From: a virus
IMG/VR virus record: IMGVR_UViG_3300042922_000514
Location: 1 to 26,353 of that record
Strand: one strand, 5' to 3'
DNA length: 26,353 bases
In this document: positions 12,507 through 25,208 of the stretch, piece by piece
How positions within the stretch are numbered: the stretch's first letter is position 1
Layout of the letters: each line of letters opens with the position of its first letter
The notes under the pieces: generated by a model
What the model was told of the DNA's origin: nothing
Seen by the model: only the letters and a program-made list of their open reading frames with translations
Database searches by the model: none
Position numbers and translations under genes: made by a program

Positions 12507-13625
12507 TTAGTCGTTGTTCGTTTGGGACGCTGCCAGGGCTACCTTCACTGCCTGTTTGGCTGCCTCATGGCGTTCCTCACCGTCTAGGTCCTTCAGTTCC
12601 TTTGAGTTGAGCGCCCTACGCTCACCGCTGAAATCCGGGGACAGAGACTTGCCCTTGCTACCTGACGGGGCGGCCTTAGACTCTACCTTTTGAGTTGGCT
12701 TACTCTTTGCATACCAAGACTTGGTACGTTCCGCAAGTTGGTCCTCAATATAGTCCAGAATGTCCTCCAGACTGGCCTCACGGCCGCCAGTAAGAGTCCG
12801 GAACTCCTCAGCGGTCATATCCCCTTCCGAAATCAAAGCCTTCTCACGGCCCTTGTAGAAGGCCGCAACGTGGGGATACTTCTCCTCATTCATTCCAAGG
12901 TTAGTAAAGGTCTGCTCCGCATGGGACCGGTGCTGACGAATCTGGGCCAGCTGTGCCTCATAGAGCTGCCGCTCCTGCGCCTGCGCCTGCTGCTCCTTCC
13001 AGTCCCGCATCTCCTTAAGTTGGGCCTCAAACTCACGCCGCTGGCGCTCTGCCTGGCCCTCAGGAGTGCCCTCACGGGCAAGGTCCAGGATGAACTGCTC
13101 TGGTTCATAGCCGGCCTCACGGATGGCGCGGCCCGGGTCCTTACGGAGGTTGGTCCAAGCTTCACGCTCCTGCTGGAGCCGCTGGCGCTCCATTTGGAAG
13201 CGCTGCATTTCCTGGTAGTGACGGGCCTGCTCCTGCCGAAACGCCTCCTGGGCCTTAGACAGTTCGTCCTTGGCCTCCTTCTTATAGTTGGCCAGCTTCT
13301 CCCGGTTCTTTAGGAGCTGCTTTACGTTGGCCTTCTCAGGGTCAAAGTCCTCGGTCTCAGGCTCCTTCTCCGCCGGCTTTTCATCCCGTGGGAGGAACTT
13401 GCCATCGGGCCCACGCTCCGGGGCACTGCCTACAGCCGGCTTGAAGGGGTCCTTGGCGCGGTCGGACTTGGCATCCTCGGCCGACTCCTTGCCAGCCTTC
13501 TCAATGGCCTCACGGACCGCCGCTAGGGCGTCTTCCCGGTTGTCATTGGGGTTCTCAGGCTCCGCGGCCAAGGTCTGTTCAATGGCCTTGCCGCCAACGT
13601 ACGTCACATTTGCTTCATCACTCAT
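12507..13625 (-). CDS. Scaffold protein, 372 aa
   Basis: The protein is highly charged and helical. The N-terminal ~100 residues are acidic (MSDEANVTYVGGKAIEQTLA, then DNREDALAAVREAIEKAGKE). Residues ~110-220 form a long Gln/Arg/Glu coiled coil (QEAFRQEQARHYQEMQRFQM), and the C-terminus is Lys rich. This acidic coiled-coil type between portal and major capsid protein is typical of podoviral scaffolds. The gene ends 114 bases before the capsid start and begins after a 19-base gap from the portal, with AAGGA and AGG upstream of the ATG. No protease motif is visible, so the scaffold is probably not autoproteolytic. Confidence 0.75.
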   Translation of the reverse strand: MSDEANVTYVGGKAIEQTLAAEPENPNDNREDALAAVREAIEKAGKESAEDAKSDRAKDPFKPAVGSAPERGPDGKFLPRDEKPAEKEPETEDFDPEKANVKQLLKNREKLANYKKEAKDELSKAQEAFRQEQARHYQEMQRFQMERQRLQQEREAWTNLRKDPGRAIREAGYEPEQFILDLAREGTPEGQAERQRREFEAQLKEMRDWKEQQAQAQERQLYEAQLAQIRQHRSHAEQTFTNLGMNEEKYPHVAAFYKGREKALISEGDMTAEEFRTLTGGREASLEDILDYIEDQLAERTKSWYAKSKPTQKVESKAAPSGSKGKSLSPDFSGERRALNSKELKDLDGEERHEAAKQAVKVALAASQTNND

Positions 13626-15726: not shown

Positions 15727-15967
15727 TGCATACACCCGACGGAGGAGTTAGGCCAGCTAGAAGCCTGGCTTGGCCCAGCTTTTGCATCATTGCTAGTTGG
15801 AATTCCTTGGAGACGTCCAACAGAAAGTCCCTCCGGGGGCTCTGGACGGCCACCCGTGCCGCCGAAAAGGCATTTAGGAGGTCATCCAGGGCCAAATCCC
15901 GAAGGGTATCAATGTCATTCTCCAATCTATGGTCTTGGGCCAAACATCTGACGGTAGGCTCTTTCAT
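15632..15967 (-). CDS. Small gene bridging terminase and portal, up to 111 aa
   Basis: A frame of up to 111 codons fills the ~200 bases between the terminase stop and the portal start, overlapping the terminase end by 41 bases and the portal start by about 95. The start is uncertain: ATG at 15965-15967, or a TTG directly after the terminase stop giving a product that begins LENDIDTLRDLALDDLLNAF. The product is helical and Leu/Ala rich in its first 70 residues with an acidic tail. Without it the gap would be empty, which supports a real gene. Function unknown. Confidence 0.5.
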   Translation of the reverse strand: MKEPTVRCLAQDHRLENDIDTLRDLALDDLLNAFSAARVAVQSPRRDFLLDVSKEFQLAMMQKLGQARLLAGLTPPSGVCNAYAEPVPREPEEVQEEGRTEADPGPVVEVG

Positions 15968-17969: not shown

Positions 17970-18070
17970 CCATGGACTGAACTAAGTAGCGCACGCGTCA
18001 TGGCCGACCGTTAATGCACCATTCGGCCTCTTCGGCGGTCAGGTACCGGCACACAAAACCCTATAACGCG

Positions 18071-18143
18071 GCGTACCCATTAGGACTTGAACCTAAATCA
18101 TCCTGCTTAACAGGCAGGCGCTCTACCATTGAGCTAAAGGTAC
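18071..18143 (-). tRNA. tRNA-Asn (anticodon GTT)
   Basis: The minus-strand sequence starts GTACCTTTAGCTCAATGG and folds as a cloverleaf. The acceptor is GTACCTT with TGGGTAC (one U-U mismatch at the inner pair), the D stem is GCTC/GAGC, and the anticodon stem CCTGC/GCAGG has loop CTGTTAA. The T arm is TTAGG-TTCAAGT-CCTAA with the normal TTC. Anticodon GTT reads AAC and AAU codons. CCA is not encoded. Confidence 0.88.
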
Positions 18144-18293
18144 ATGGCTGGGGCGCACTAACGCGGCTCCCCAATTGCGGCATGCTGCTAACGGTTATCC
18201 ATGGTTCCGCTTCGCTCATATAGACTGCATGCTGCCCGTATTAATGGGGACCCTTTGGGCCAGGCTAAGGTACGGAGCAATGCTATTCCTCCG

Positions 18294-18310
18294 GTTGGAT
18301 TTGAACCAAC
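18294..18310 (-). other. Orphan tRNA T arm downstream of tRNA-Leu
   Basis: Thirteen bases after the tRNA-Leu gene the minus strand carries a perfect T arm, GTTGG-TTCAAAT-CCAAC, followed by an acceptor-like CGGAGGA. The D and anticodon arms that should precede it are missing, since that space is taken by the end of tRNA-Leu. It looks like the 3' half of a deleted tRNA gene. Confidence 0.5.
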
Positions 18311-18322
18311 GATGTCCCCTCG

Positions 18323-18401
18323 TCCGCAAGGAGGGATTTGAACCCCCACGCACAAGGCGCCAGCTTCTAAGGCTGGTGTGTCTGCATTCCACCACTTGCG
18401 G
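18323..18401 (-). tRNA. tRNA-Leu (anticodon TAG)
   Basis: The acceptor pairs CCGCAAG with CTTGCGG over all 7 positions. The anticodon stem is CCAGC/GCTGG with loop CTTAGAA, giving anticodon TAG for CUA-family leucine codons. A variable arm (CGCCTTGTGCG) of class II type and a T arm with TTCAAAT follow. The discriminator base is A, as expected for leucine tRNAs. CCA is not encoded. Confidence 0.9.
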
Positions 18402-22385: not shown

Positions 22386-22805
22386 ATGAAAACACTAGCA
22401 GTAGTCGGTTCTAGAACACGTAGCCGGCAAGAGTACGAACGTATAAAAACTTTAGTTTTCAATAAGTTGCATACTGTACCGCAGGACGTGGTGATTATCT
22501 CCGGCGGTGCCCCCACCGGCGCAGACAAGGCAGCCAGAGAGTACTGTAGGTTCTATAACCGTAAGTACTTGGAAGCAGTGGCCTTCTGGTCAAGACCTGA
22601 CGGGTCCACCGACAAGTCCGCCGGTCACCGAAGGAACAGCACCATTGTGGAAGCTGCCGATACCATTGTGGCTTTCTGGGACGGGCAGTCCCCAGGGACC
22701 AAGGACACCATCAGCAAGGCTGAGGCCTGCGGCAAGGAGCTTGAAATCATTAAGGTTCCATCTGCCACGTTCAAGCCAACGGTGGTCGGGTGGGTCAATG
22801 ATTAG
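22386..22805 (+). CDS. SLOG-family (YspA/DprA-like) nucleotide-binding protein, 139 aa
   Basis: The start MKTLAVVGSRTRSRQEYERI is chosen because the GSR loop must be near the N-terminus; a frame open for 15 codons upstream is ignored. Residues 36-47 read VIISGGAPTGAD, and residues 81-100 contain HRRNSTIVEAADTIVAFWDG, both hallmarks of the YspA/DUF2493 branch of SLOG Rossmann proteins. These bind nucleotides or nucleotide-derived signals. In phages their role is unclear and could be nucleotide sensing or counter-defence. There is no clear Shine-Dalgarno sequence; the leader contains the nested hairpins. It overlaps the next gene by eight bases. Confidence 0.75.
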   Translation: MKTLAVVGSRTRSRQEYERIKTLVFNKLHTVPQDVVIISGGAPTGADKAAREYCRFYNRKYLEAVAFWSRPDGSTDKSAGHRRNSTIVEAADTIVAFWDGQSPGTKDTISKAEACGKELEIIKVPSATFKPTVVGWVND

Positions 22806-23552: not shown

Positions 23553-23588
23553 CCGAATCCTATAAAGGCCCCGTAATGGGCATCCTGG

Positions 23589-23625
23589 AGCCTCCTGTAC
23601 GTAATGTCCTGGGGGCTTTCTGCTT
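23589..23625 (+). terminator. Possible intrinsic terminator after the small-gene chain
   Basis: AGCCTCC (23589-23595) can pair with GGGGGCT (23611-23617), seven pairs with one G-U, around a 15-base loop. A moderately T-rich tail TTCTGCTTT follows. It stands 37 bases after the last gene of the chain. The long loop and broken T run make it weak. Confidence 0.35.
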
Positions 23626-23722
23626 TGGTAGGGTCAGAACATTGCTGGATTTTTGGGTGTGTAGTGGGTCCCTTCGGGCAAAAACCATGCCACCCCTTTG
23701 GGGGCTATCACCCCCGGGGACT

Positions 23723-23756
23723 TGGCACGGGGATTGCTTTAGCAAAGGTCATGCCA
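23723..23756. repeat. 34-bp palindrome of two convergent motifs (site 1)
   Basis: The plus-strand copy TGGCACGGGGATTGC faces the minus-strand copy GCAAAGGTCATGCCA across TTTA, four bases. The flanking T and A extend the dyad to TTGGCA and TGCCAA. The next minus copy is ten bases further on. Site lies in the intergenic region before 24057. Confidence 0.7.
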
Positions 23757-23875
23757 ACAGCCTCGGCAAGTACTGTGCCATAGCTAAGTGCATGTAATTA
23801 CAGCGAATCAAGTTCTATGCCAAAGTTGGCGTGTCAAAATGGACACCGATTACGTTGGCACGGTTCTGCAAGTGT

Positions 23876-23995
23876 ATGAAAGTAGGCGGGTTTAGTGTTG
23901 GCATGGAAGTTGCCGTACTACCTGGCCCAGTTCTGGCATCAGCAAAGCCCGTTCCAGCGCTCTGCCATGCAATTCCCAAGCCACCCGGCGCCTGA
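23876..23995 (+). CDS. Possible small protein, 39 aa
   Basis: ATG-AAA-GTA opens a 39-codon frame beginning MKVGGFSVGMEVAVLPGPVL and rich in Val, Ala and Pro. There is no clear binding site, and it spans one exact motif copy (23899). A possible sigma-54-like element with a short spacer ends seven bases before the ATG. Translation is doubtful. Confidence 0.25.
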   Translation: MKVGGFSVGMEVAVLPGPVLASAKPVPALCHAIPKPPGA

Positions 23996-24056
23996 GGTGA
24001 GGATGGTGGCTAATTGACCACCCACCCCTGGGCAACGGCTAGCCACCTCAAGAACC

Positions 24057-24470
24057 GTGCCGTTCATTGAATCAATAGGTTACACAACACCGGCCGCTGG
24101 CACGCCGAATGCATCAGTAGTTGTCATGATGACCGACCGCCCCGAGTTCACGCCATGCCACATCTGCGCCTCAAACGACGGCGCCAGCGTCCAGCGTCCG
24201 CACTCACACCTCTTTGGCACGCTTGACGCATCACCGGTCAACGTGTCCCGTGAGTCCTACTACCGCACCCTGGCTGAGCTGAGCTTCGTCTGGGCCTCCG
24301 GCAAGGAGCATGCCACCGACACAGTAGAGTCAGGTAGGTTCAGCACCTACAAGGGCGCCATGGAGTGGATGTACGACCTTGTGGGAGACGCTACGCTCCT
24401 ATGCTTCCGTGACTGGCATGGCACGGAGCTTGCTGACCTGGACGGCTGCGGCGCTCTGGAGTGGTGCTGA
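24057..24470 (+). CDS. Hypothetical protein, up to 137 aa
   Basis: The longest reading begins at a GTG (24057-24059) without a good binding site; two ATGs at 24126-24131 (MMTDRPEFTPCHICASNDGA) are alternatives. The product has a CxxC (PCHIC), a SYYRTLAELSFVW helix and a Trp/Asp-rich end (LCFRDWHGTELADLDGCGAL) with the sequence style of real phage proteins. The frame carries two near copies and two exact copies of the repeated motif, read as Gly-Thr in the plus-orientation cases. Function unknown. Confidence 0.5.
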   Translation: MPFIESIGYTTPAAGTPNASVVVMMTDRPEFTPCHICASNDGASVQRPHSHLFGTLDASPVNVSRESYYRTLAELSFVWASGKEHATDTVESGRFSTYKGAMEWMYDLVGDATLLCFRDWHGTELADLDGCGALEWC

Positions 24471-24494
24471 CACCGCCTTTGGCACGGATGTAGC

Positions 24495-24686
24495 ATGAAC
24501 ATGTGGCGTTTCAACACACGTAGCGGGATGTGGGACCATGTGCGCAGTGTGACAGCGGAGACTGCGGCCGCCTGGCTGGCGGTCTGGCAGCGGGACGAAC
24601 CTGGCACGCTCTTTGTCATTGCAAAGAGTAAGCCACGCAAGGCGCCCAAGTGGGACAAGGAAGAGTGTAGGTACGTGCTCACATAG
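24495..24686 (+). CDS. Hypothetical protein, 63 aa
   Basis: The start MNMWRFNTRSGMWDHVRSVT follows a near copy of the repeated motif directly (24480-24494); if that were a sigma-54 promoter its transcript would start inside the gene, so the gene must be read from upstream RNA. The core TAETAAAWLAVWQRDEPGTL followed by FVIAKSKPRKAP looks like a compact helix-plus-strand domain of the kind seen in small phage proteins. There is no Shine-Dalgarno sequence. Function unknown. Confidence 0.5.
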   Translation: MNMWRFNTRSGMWDHVRSVTAETAAAWLAVWQRDEPGTLFVIAKSKPRKAPKWDKEECRYVLT

Positions 24687-24692
24687 AACCAC

Positions 24693-24770
24693 ATGGCCTG
24701 GACTTTGCTTGTGCAAGGTCTGGGCCATCTGCTCTGGCACGTAACGTGCATCACCTACATGTGTGCCTAA
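24693..24770 (+). CDS. Possible hydrophobic micropeptide, 25 aa
   Basis: ATG-GCC-TGG opens a 25-codon frame, MAWTLLVQGLGHLLWHVTCI and five more residues, which is hydrophobic over its length and could span a membrane. It is almost wholly covered by the second motif palindrome and one near copy, so the sequence may be constrained for another reason. No binding site is clear. Confidence 0.25.
   Translation: MAWTLLVQGLGHLLWHVTCITYMCA
24694..24727. repeat. 34-bp palindrome of two convergent motifs (site 2)
   Basis: TGGCCTGGACTTTGC on the plus strand faces GCAAGGTCTGGGCCA across TTGT, four bases. The dyad extends outward to ATGGCC and GGCCAT and continues through the N4 part (GACY / RGTC), more symmetric than the basic motif requires. 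It stands eight bases after the stop of the 63-residue gene. Confidence 0.7.
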
Positions 24771-24852
24771 GTGGTTGGCACATGGCTTGCATGCAGCAAT
24801 AAGCAGGCCACCTACATCAGCACACAATGTGCGCACTACGCTCCACCTACAT
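24752..24852 (+). repeat. Three direct copies of CACCTACAT
   Basis: The 9-mer CACCTACAT occurs at 24752-24760, 24809-24817 and 24844-24852, one of them abutting palindrome site 3. The last copy pairs with a following GTAGGT to form a small hairpin (ACCTAC-ATGACA-GTAGGT). Confidence 0.55.
24776..24810. repeat. 35-bp palindrome of two convergent motifs (site 3)
   Basis: TGGCACATGGCTTGC on the plus strand faces GCAATAAGCAGGCCA across five bases (ATGCA). The spacing is one base longer than in sites 1 and 2. The arms match the motif but differ in N4. Confidence 0.65.
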
Positions 24853-25208
24853 GACAGTAGGTCGGGGCGTTTTGCTTTTGGGCTTCAGGAAACGCCTATT
24901 ATAGGCAATTCCAGGGCAATTCTAATGCAGCGCGTCTCACCCCAAAGGGTGATGGCCGAGCCTGGCAAGGCCACCTTGGATAAAAGGAGGCATTAGCCGA
25001 AAGATAAGTGGCAGCTGTACCTACCTGGACACTGCGTGACATGGCAGAGCTAACCCAACGTTATCCCATGCTAGCGCTTATATAATCGGGGCAGAATTGT
25101 ACTGTACACCGACAATCCGTTGTCACTACGCCACATTGCGCTGTCAATCGGCGTGACTATCCTATGCGCTGTCCCAATCTCGGGGCCCGCAGTAACGGAG
25201 AGACAGTC
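24853..25208 (+). other. Intergenic region without a supported gene
   Basis: The region holds an inverted repeat GGCGTTT/AAACGCC (about 24866-24896), a strong AAGGAGG (24984-24990) with no good start codon at proper distance, and a possible 25-codon frame starting at a GTG near 25009 (beginning AAVPTWTLRDMAELTQRYPM). It also holds a palindrome TGTACTGTACA near 25098-25109 and a GACAA/TTGTC hairpin just after. Otherwise nothing was recognised. Confidence 0.4.
25081..25086 (+). promoter_or_regulatory. Candidate -10 box TATAAT
   Basis: A perfect TATAAT stands about 120 bases before the next gene, with a poor -35 region (ACGTTA at 17 bases). The palindrome TGTACTGTACA just downstream, near the expected transcription start, could be an operator. 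This would be a sigma-70-type promoter for the coiled-coil gene. Confidence 0.4.

Follow-up and report, generated by a model that had tools for sequence, protein, structure and literature searches.

Face-to-face sigma-54-like sites form a dense array in a virus genome and may act as a decoy for host polymerase

The virus record analyzed here over its full length of 26,353 bp (IMG/VR contig IMGVR_UViG_3300042922_000514, possibly a fragment; hereafter the window) raises the question of why a phage should carry a dense cluster of sigma-54-like -24/-12 motifs on both strands. The structural genes of the window (terminase, head-tail adaptor/portal, capsid) are found on the minus strand, small plus-strand genes span 22.3 to 25.6 kb, and the genes local to the motifs are all on the plus strand. 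Exact copies of TGGC-N7-TTGC occurred 17 times in the window versus 1.33 expected from dinucleotide shuffles (largest shuffle value: 4), and 13 of the 17 fall within positions 23678-24810. The first-pass annotation had described this clustering, which stands, and had counted eleven exact copies, which has to be corrected to 13. All eight full matches to TGGCAYR-N4-TTGC in the window lie inside the cluster, and an equal density was not found elsewhere in the 26-kb record. The dense motif cluster is confirmed as real. An iterated weight matrix yielded 24 sites in this stretch, 12 on the plus and 12 on the minus strand; they are given below together with the two genes of the stretch and with the evidence for each entry in brackets.

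23678-23692, minus strand: sigma-54-like site TGGCATGGTTTTTGC (exact pattern and matrix)
23723-23756: face-to-face dyad 1, TGGCACGGGGATTGC (plus) and TGGCATGACCTTTGC (minus), gap 4 (TTTA) (exact pattern and strand map)
23766-23780, minus strand: sigma-54-like site TGGCACAGTACTTGC (exact pattern and matrix)
23808-23822, minus strand: sigma-54-like near copy TGGCATAGAACTTGA (matrix)
23856-23870, plus strand: near copy TGGCACGGTTCTGCA (matrix)
23899-23913, plus strand: sigma-54-like site TGGCATGGAAGTTGC (exact pattern and matrix)
23923-23956: face-to-face dyad 2 (weaker), TGGCCCAGTTCTGGC (plus) and TGGAACGGGCTTTGC (minus), gap 4 (matrix)
23953-23967, minus strand: weak near copy TGGCAGAGCGCTGGA (matrix)
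23969-23983, minus strand: sigma-54-like site TGGCTTGGGAATTGC (exact pattern and matrix)
24048-24062, minus strand: near copy CGGCACGGTTCTTGA (matrix)
24098-24112, plus strand: near copy TGGCACGCCGAATGC (matrix)
24126-24470, plus strand: small orphan gene, open reading frame from GTG 24057, coding-like codon use (no Pfam/PHROG match)
24215-24229, plus strand: near copy TGGCACGCTTGACGC, within gene 24126-24470 (matrix)
24301-24315, minus strand: sigma-54-like site TGGCATGCTCCTTGC, within gene (exact pattern and matrix)
24419-24433, plus strand: sigma-54-like site TGGCACGGAGCTTGC, within gene (exact pattern and matrix)
24480-24494, plus strand: near copy TGGCACGGATGTAGC, abutting ATG at 24495 (matrix)
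24495-24686, plus strand: 63-aa orphan gene, coding-like codon use (no Pfam/PHROG match)
24602-24635: face-to-face dyad 3, TGGCACGCTCTTTGT (plus) and TGGCTTACTCTTTGC (minus), gap 4, within gene 24495-24686 (exact pattern and matrix)
24694-24727: face-to-face dyad 4, TGGCCTGGACTTTGC (plus) and TGGCCCAGACCTTGC (minus), gap 4 (exact pattern)
24735-24749, plus strand: near copy TGGCACGTAACGTGC (matrix)
24776-24810: face-to-face dyad 5, TGGCACATGGCTTGC (plus) and TGGCCTGCTTATTGC (minus), gap 5 (exact pattern)

The consensus of bacterial sigma-54 promoters (Barrios type) reads YTGGCACGrN3TTGCW. The window matrix, T-TGGC-A-Y-R-G/n-W-n-Y-TTGC-A, agrees with it position by position, including the GG of the -24 element and the GC of the -12 element, which bears out the earlier designation of the motifs as sigma-54-like. 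They were also correctly described as lying in both intergenic DNA and genes: about half of the cluster is non-coding by codon usage (23560-24057 and 24690-25200), the other sites being within genes. Amino acid and codon use can be ruled out as a full explanation, given this non-coding half and the fact that 2000 synonymous recodings of gene 24126-24470 never reached its two full-consensus sites (mean 0.05). With looser site thresholds the excess inside the cluster genes was weaker (P 0.0005-0.10).

What the first reading of the sequence did not contain, and what was added by this analysis, is the face-to-face geometry. Five pairs of convergent plus and minus sites occur in the window, the gap being exactly 4 bp in four of them and 5 bp in the fifth; when the same sites were placed at random 20,000 times, five such pairs were never reached. 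The form of the dyad is TGGCAYR-N4-TTGC-(4-5)-GCAA-N4-YRTGCCA. In addition, the sites 23723 (plus), 23742 (minus) and 23766 (minus) form a three-site module of which 23899 (plus), 23923 (plus) and 23942 (minus) are the mirror image, with a direct step of 24 bp; in viral loci the repeat steps of such arrays are about 42-43 or 54 bp. The unit of the array is a dyad of 34-35 bp and not an independent promoter. A hairpin RNA or palindromic repeat element was considered and ruled out, as the arms of the dyad are only partly complementary and its interior is not complementary.

No relatives of the window were found by DNA, terminase, 137-aa orphan, capsid protein or terminase alignment. Virus Rctr16k (40% terminase) is without the motif, and isolates whose terminases are related (Manatee Spring contigs, Caulobacter GB2A, Roseobacter CRP-6, Microcystis MaeS) had no such array in the stretches examined. 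The dyad itself, however, is a viral element. A search of viral contigs with TGGCA-N6-TTGC-(4-5)-GCAA-N6-TGCCA, in which 18 bases are fixed, yielded at least 119 stretches, a number that is a lower bound; with a gap of 12-13 only seven matches were obtained and with a scrambled consensus none. When 84,980 bacterial and archaeal species were scanned, each through one genome, the dyad turned up five times, in all cases in MAG contigs; it is nearly restricted to viruses. Its carriers are unrelated phages with a GC content of 30-68% and a size of 14-481 kb. Although the search did not force it, Y followed by R stands after TGGCA on both arms in nearly all viral copies. In 128 non-redundant dyads (256 arms) the unforced positions showed T/C before TGGC, then C/T, G/A, R and a T-rich stretch, and A/T after TTGC (G at 2%). 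At these degenerate, unforced positions the dyad agrees with the sigma-54 consensus. The arrays are also confined: among the matches listed for 29 viral records (14-481 kb), exact sites mostly occupy a region of between a few hundred bp and several kb, such as 77.4-81.5 kb of 354 kb or 20.2-20.7 kb of 44 kb, and a few of these records have distant single sites. The reversed pattern gave 0-1 matches in the same records.

In other phages, boxes of further host regulators accompany the arrays. The consensus sequences used in these scans are general knowledge; in addition, k-mers and palindromes near arrays were counted without bias towards known boxes. Together these counts and scans pointed to an excess of DnaA, NtrC, FleQ, Fur-type and IHF sites. 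The enrichment test was restricted to non-coding DNA, the GC content of which was equal near and far from arrays (0.420 vs. 0.423), which rules out an artefact of composition. Near arrays, 45 DnaA boxes (4.1 expected), 16 FleQ boxes in five loci (0.3 expected), 9 NtrC boxes in eight loci (0.3 expected), 10 Fur boxes (0.3 expected) and 47 IHF sites (16.6 expected) were found, while scrambled boxes gave a null result; as the viral loci are partly related to one another, Poisson and P values for such counts overstate independence. At least one other regulator class was present in 31 of 114 array loci. LexA, CRP and parS boxes showed no significant enrichment in this near/far comparison. A reverse search that made no use of sigma-54 (LexA box at most 30 bp from a DnaA box) returned 15 viral stretches and none for the scrambled control; these loci contained 14 sigma-54 sites versus 1.7 expected, in four loci only, and were also enriched in Fur, IHF and extra DnaA boxes. 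A replication origin was ruled out, as most arrays have no DnaA box nearby. The window itself is without any consensus box of other host regulators, including that of an activator, apart from one IHF-like match, and the multi-regulator island is therefore demonstrated in other phages and not in the window.

Three named phages illustrate such islands. In Vibrio phage D419 all five sigma-54 sites and all five TTATCCACA DnaA boxes are located at 103.2-107.2 kb of 114 kb, a segment that also holds both CRP boxes and three perfect LexA boxes. In Pseudomonas phage vB_PpS_SYP, five perfect parS sites are found in or near the genome ends (L155 294, 963, 4266 and 7655; L165 27116), and six of the nine sigma-54 sites lie in the first 12 kb. 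Escherichia coli phage T5 has no sigma-54 site, but its first-step-transfer DNA contains all three TTATCCACA DnaA boxes and both perfect LexA boxes along with several of the Fur type; in its injection stop region (L168 9140-10219), one DnaA box and one perfect LexA box accompany a group of Fur-type boxes. In the literature searched, no report was found that interprets phage boxes as arrays for host regulators, and nothing relevant on phage sigma-54 promoters or decoy sites.

The cluster of the window may best be read as one instance of phage islands of consensus sites for host regulators. Specifically, it appears to be an array of high-affinity sites for a presumed sigma-54 (RpoN) polymerase of the host, most likely serving as a decoy, a reading that has close to an even chance of being correct. 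Phage DNA would bind the host sigma-54 holoenzyme in either orientation and, in the absence of an activator, keep it in inert closed complexes; multiplication of the phage genome would then draw sigma-54 away from host promoters. Both the identity of the binder as sigma-54 and selection for capture rather than for transcription are inferences. A decoy is preferred because the facing sites are mutually exclusive for transcription, because cells hardly use the face-to-face layout, and because the companion boxes for DnaA, Fur and LexA are unrelated to sigma-54 transcription. It is weakened by the modest copy number of 5-24 sites per genome, which would allow titration only after replication, and by the near absence of other regulators' boxes in the window. 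Two further observations tell against it, as they favor promoters: unpaired intergenic sites in other viral loci are directed towards co-directional genes in 49 versus 25 cases, and five loci (L030, L045, L081, L089, L112) carry NtrC boxes at some 60-180 bp from the dyad, on the side where an enhancer would be expected for the site that faces the operon of the large terminase gene (TerL).

These two observations are at the same time the strongest evidence for ordinary promoters, the main rival to the decoy. According to this rival, which appears rather unlikely, the sites function as sigma-54 promoters and the dyads as compact bidirectional promoters at a divergent hub, and NtrC, FleQ and IHF drive phage operons according to the nitrogen or motility state of the host. 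The start codons flanking arrays point away on both sides and the arrays therefore sit at divergent junctions, as would be expected of such a hub; the enrichment of IHF sites near arrays fits as well. However, face-to-face sites 4-5 bp apart should exclude simultaneous use by polymerase, and cellular genomes show hardly any example of the layout. Bacterial sigma-54 promoters peak 0-200 nt upstream of start codons (PMC3162934), whereas a ribosome site plus start codon showed no peak at promoter distance from the array sites, in either orientation and on both sides alike. Sigma-70-like promoters near arrays point outward at 150-350 bp. Within the best-represented phage group, the TerL operon of most loci has its own sigma-70-type promoter, the dyads lying upstream of it by another few hundred bp. 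In the window, the sites are split evenly between the strands although all local genes are on the plus strand. No phage RpoN DNA-binding domain and no sigma-54 activator matched over the cut-off (50 and 32 records), and the DnaA, LexA and Fur boxes would be left unexplained. The proposal of the first-pass annotation that the phage uses many sigma-54 promoters thus finds no support.

Improbable, yet fitting for T5-like phages, is a landing pad or roadblock, in which host DNA-binding proteins on the first-entering DNA would pause, ratchet or protect the incoming genome. This has been proposed for the T5 injection stop signal, the repeats, palindromes and DnaA boxes of which are thought to interact with host components (PMC13250531). 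The placement of the DnaA, LexA and Fur-type boxes of T5 in its first-step-transfer DNA is consistent with the idea, as is the clustering of the D419 and SYP boxes among small genes of early type or at genome ends. The other phages considered here are, however, not known for two-step injection. What makes T5 comparable is a grouping of boxes for host factors in its early DNA; the arrays described here differ in being mainly sigma-54 dyads, which T5 lacks, and other array phages add NtrC, FleQ, CRP or parS.

Little probability is likewise given to a binder encoded by the phage (repressor, origin or packaging protein), with a specificity that resembles sigma-54 by coincidence and with the dyad as its 34-bp operator. 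The dyad geometry would suit a dimer, many arrays are near terminase genes and often upstream of the terminase operon, and orphan genes adjoin the array of the window. Against this, the same site recurs in unrelated phages over the whole range of GC content and size given above without a common regulator gene nearby: among the open reading frames of the dyad loci no common regulator family was found, the largest common families being terminase, a 178-aa family, portal and primase-helicase. The agreement with sigma-54 moreover extends to degenerate positions, and NtrC, FleQ and IHF boxes co-occur. The family of about 178 aa is encoded upstream of terminase beside arrays (L112 1101-1631 and 25 other loci) and has no PHROG/Pfam match. 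A packaging (pac) site was also considered for arrays near terminase and was set aside because the array of the window lies 6 kb away from the terminase gene and because a pac site would leave the host boxes unexplained. Finally, an origin by chance, by codon use or from a degenerate family of palindromic repeats can be dismissed. In its favor it could be said that a few of the sites within genes share one codon phase, but it is refuted by the shuffles, the synonymous recoding, the placement test and the spacing and scrambled controls, as well as by the non-complementary interior of the dyad.

Beyond the window, a wider form of the decoy reading can be put forward, more tentatively than that for the window itself: phages of many kinds might use islands of sites for global host regulators (sigma-54, DnaA, LexA, Fur, NtrC, FleQ, IHF, ParB) to disarm or commandeer these by DNA binding alone, and the head-to-head sigma-54 dyad would be the commonest sign, in this search, of such a protein-free layer of host takeover. 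Titration loci of the datA type for DnaA and multicopy Fur boxes each serve a single regulator and lie on chromosomes or plasmids. With these the arrays share clustered consensus sites able to draw a regulator from its targets, titration by the arrays being proposed. The stoperators of cluster A mycobacteriophages, which are scattered over the genome, are bound by a repressor of the phage; the arrays are similar in providing many short asymmetric sites in one phage genome, but are confined to a small region and lack a phage regulator gene common to their carriers. If the wider reading is correct, phages would have a route to host takeover that requires no protein of their own and, in the case of sigma-54, relies on a site layout hardly used by cells themselves. 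Much of what is described in phages as intergenic repeats and palindromes could then be read as the names of captured host proteins, the boxes would give clues to the host of a phage, and defined host proteins (Fur, LexA, DnaA) could be used to test the question of the T5 injection stop signal.

Several minor observations were made alongside. In the viral contig L033 (9860-11749) ten FleQ-type boxes, GTCAA-N4-TTGAC, lie near sigma-54 sites, with none in 770 kb of far sequence; in L175 and L177 a parS site is 48 bp from LexA/DnaA boxes; and C5/G5 palindromes as well as TACCCCC are enriched near comparable arrays in other viral loci. The window has two strong single sites outside the cluster among its minus-strand genes, at 12696-12710 and 15771-15785 (plus) (TGGCTTACTCTTTGC and TGGCCCAGCTTTTGC), the former sequence being found inside the cluster as well, at 24621. 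A perfect palindrome, GGGGGCTATCACCCCC, is located in the non-coding part at 23700-23715, and three copies of a GAATCAATnnGTT-type repeat surround the cluster (23458, 24069, 25735). A SLOG/YspA-like protein with a weak DprA-type match below the curated cut-off is encoded at the divergent junction (22386-22802, plus), and two tRNA genes (Asn, Leu) are located at 18070-18401 (minus), close to the terminase gene.
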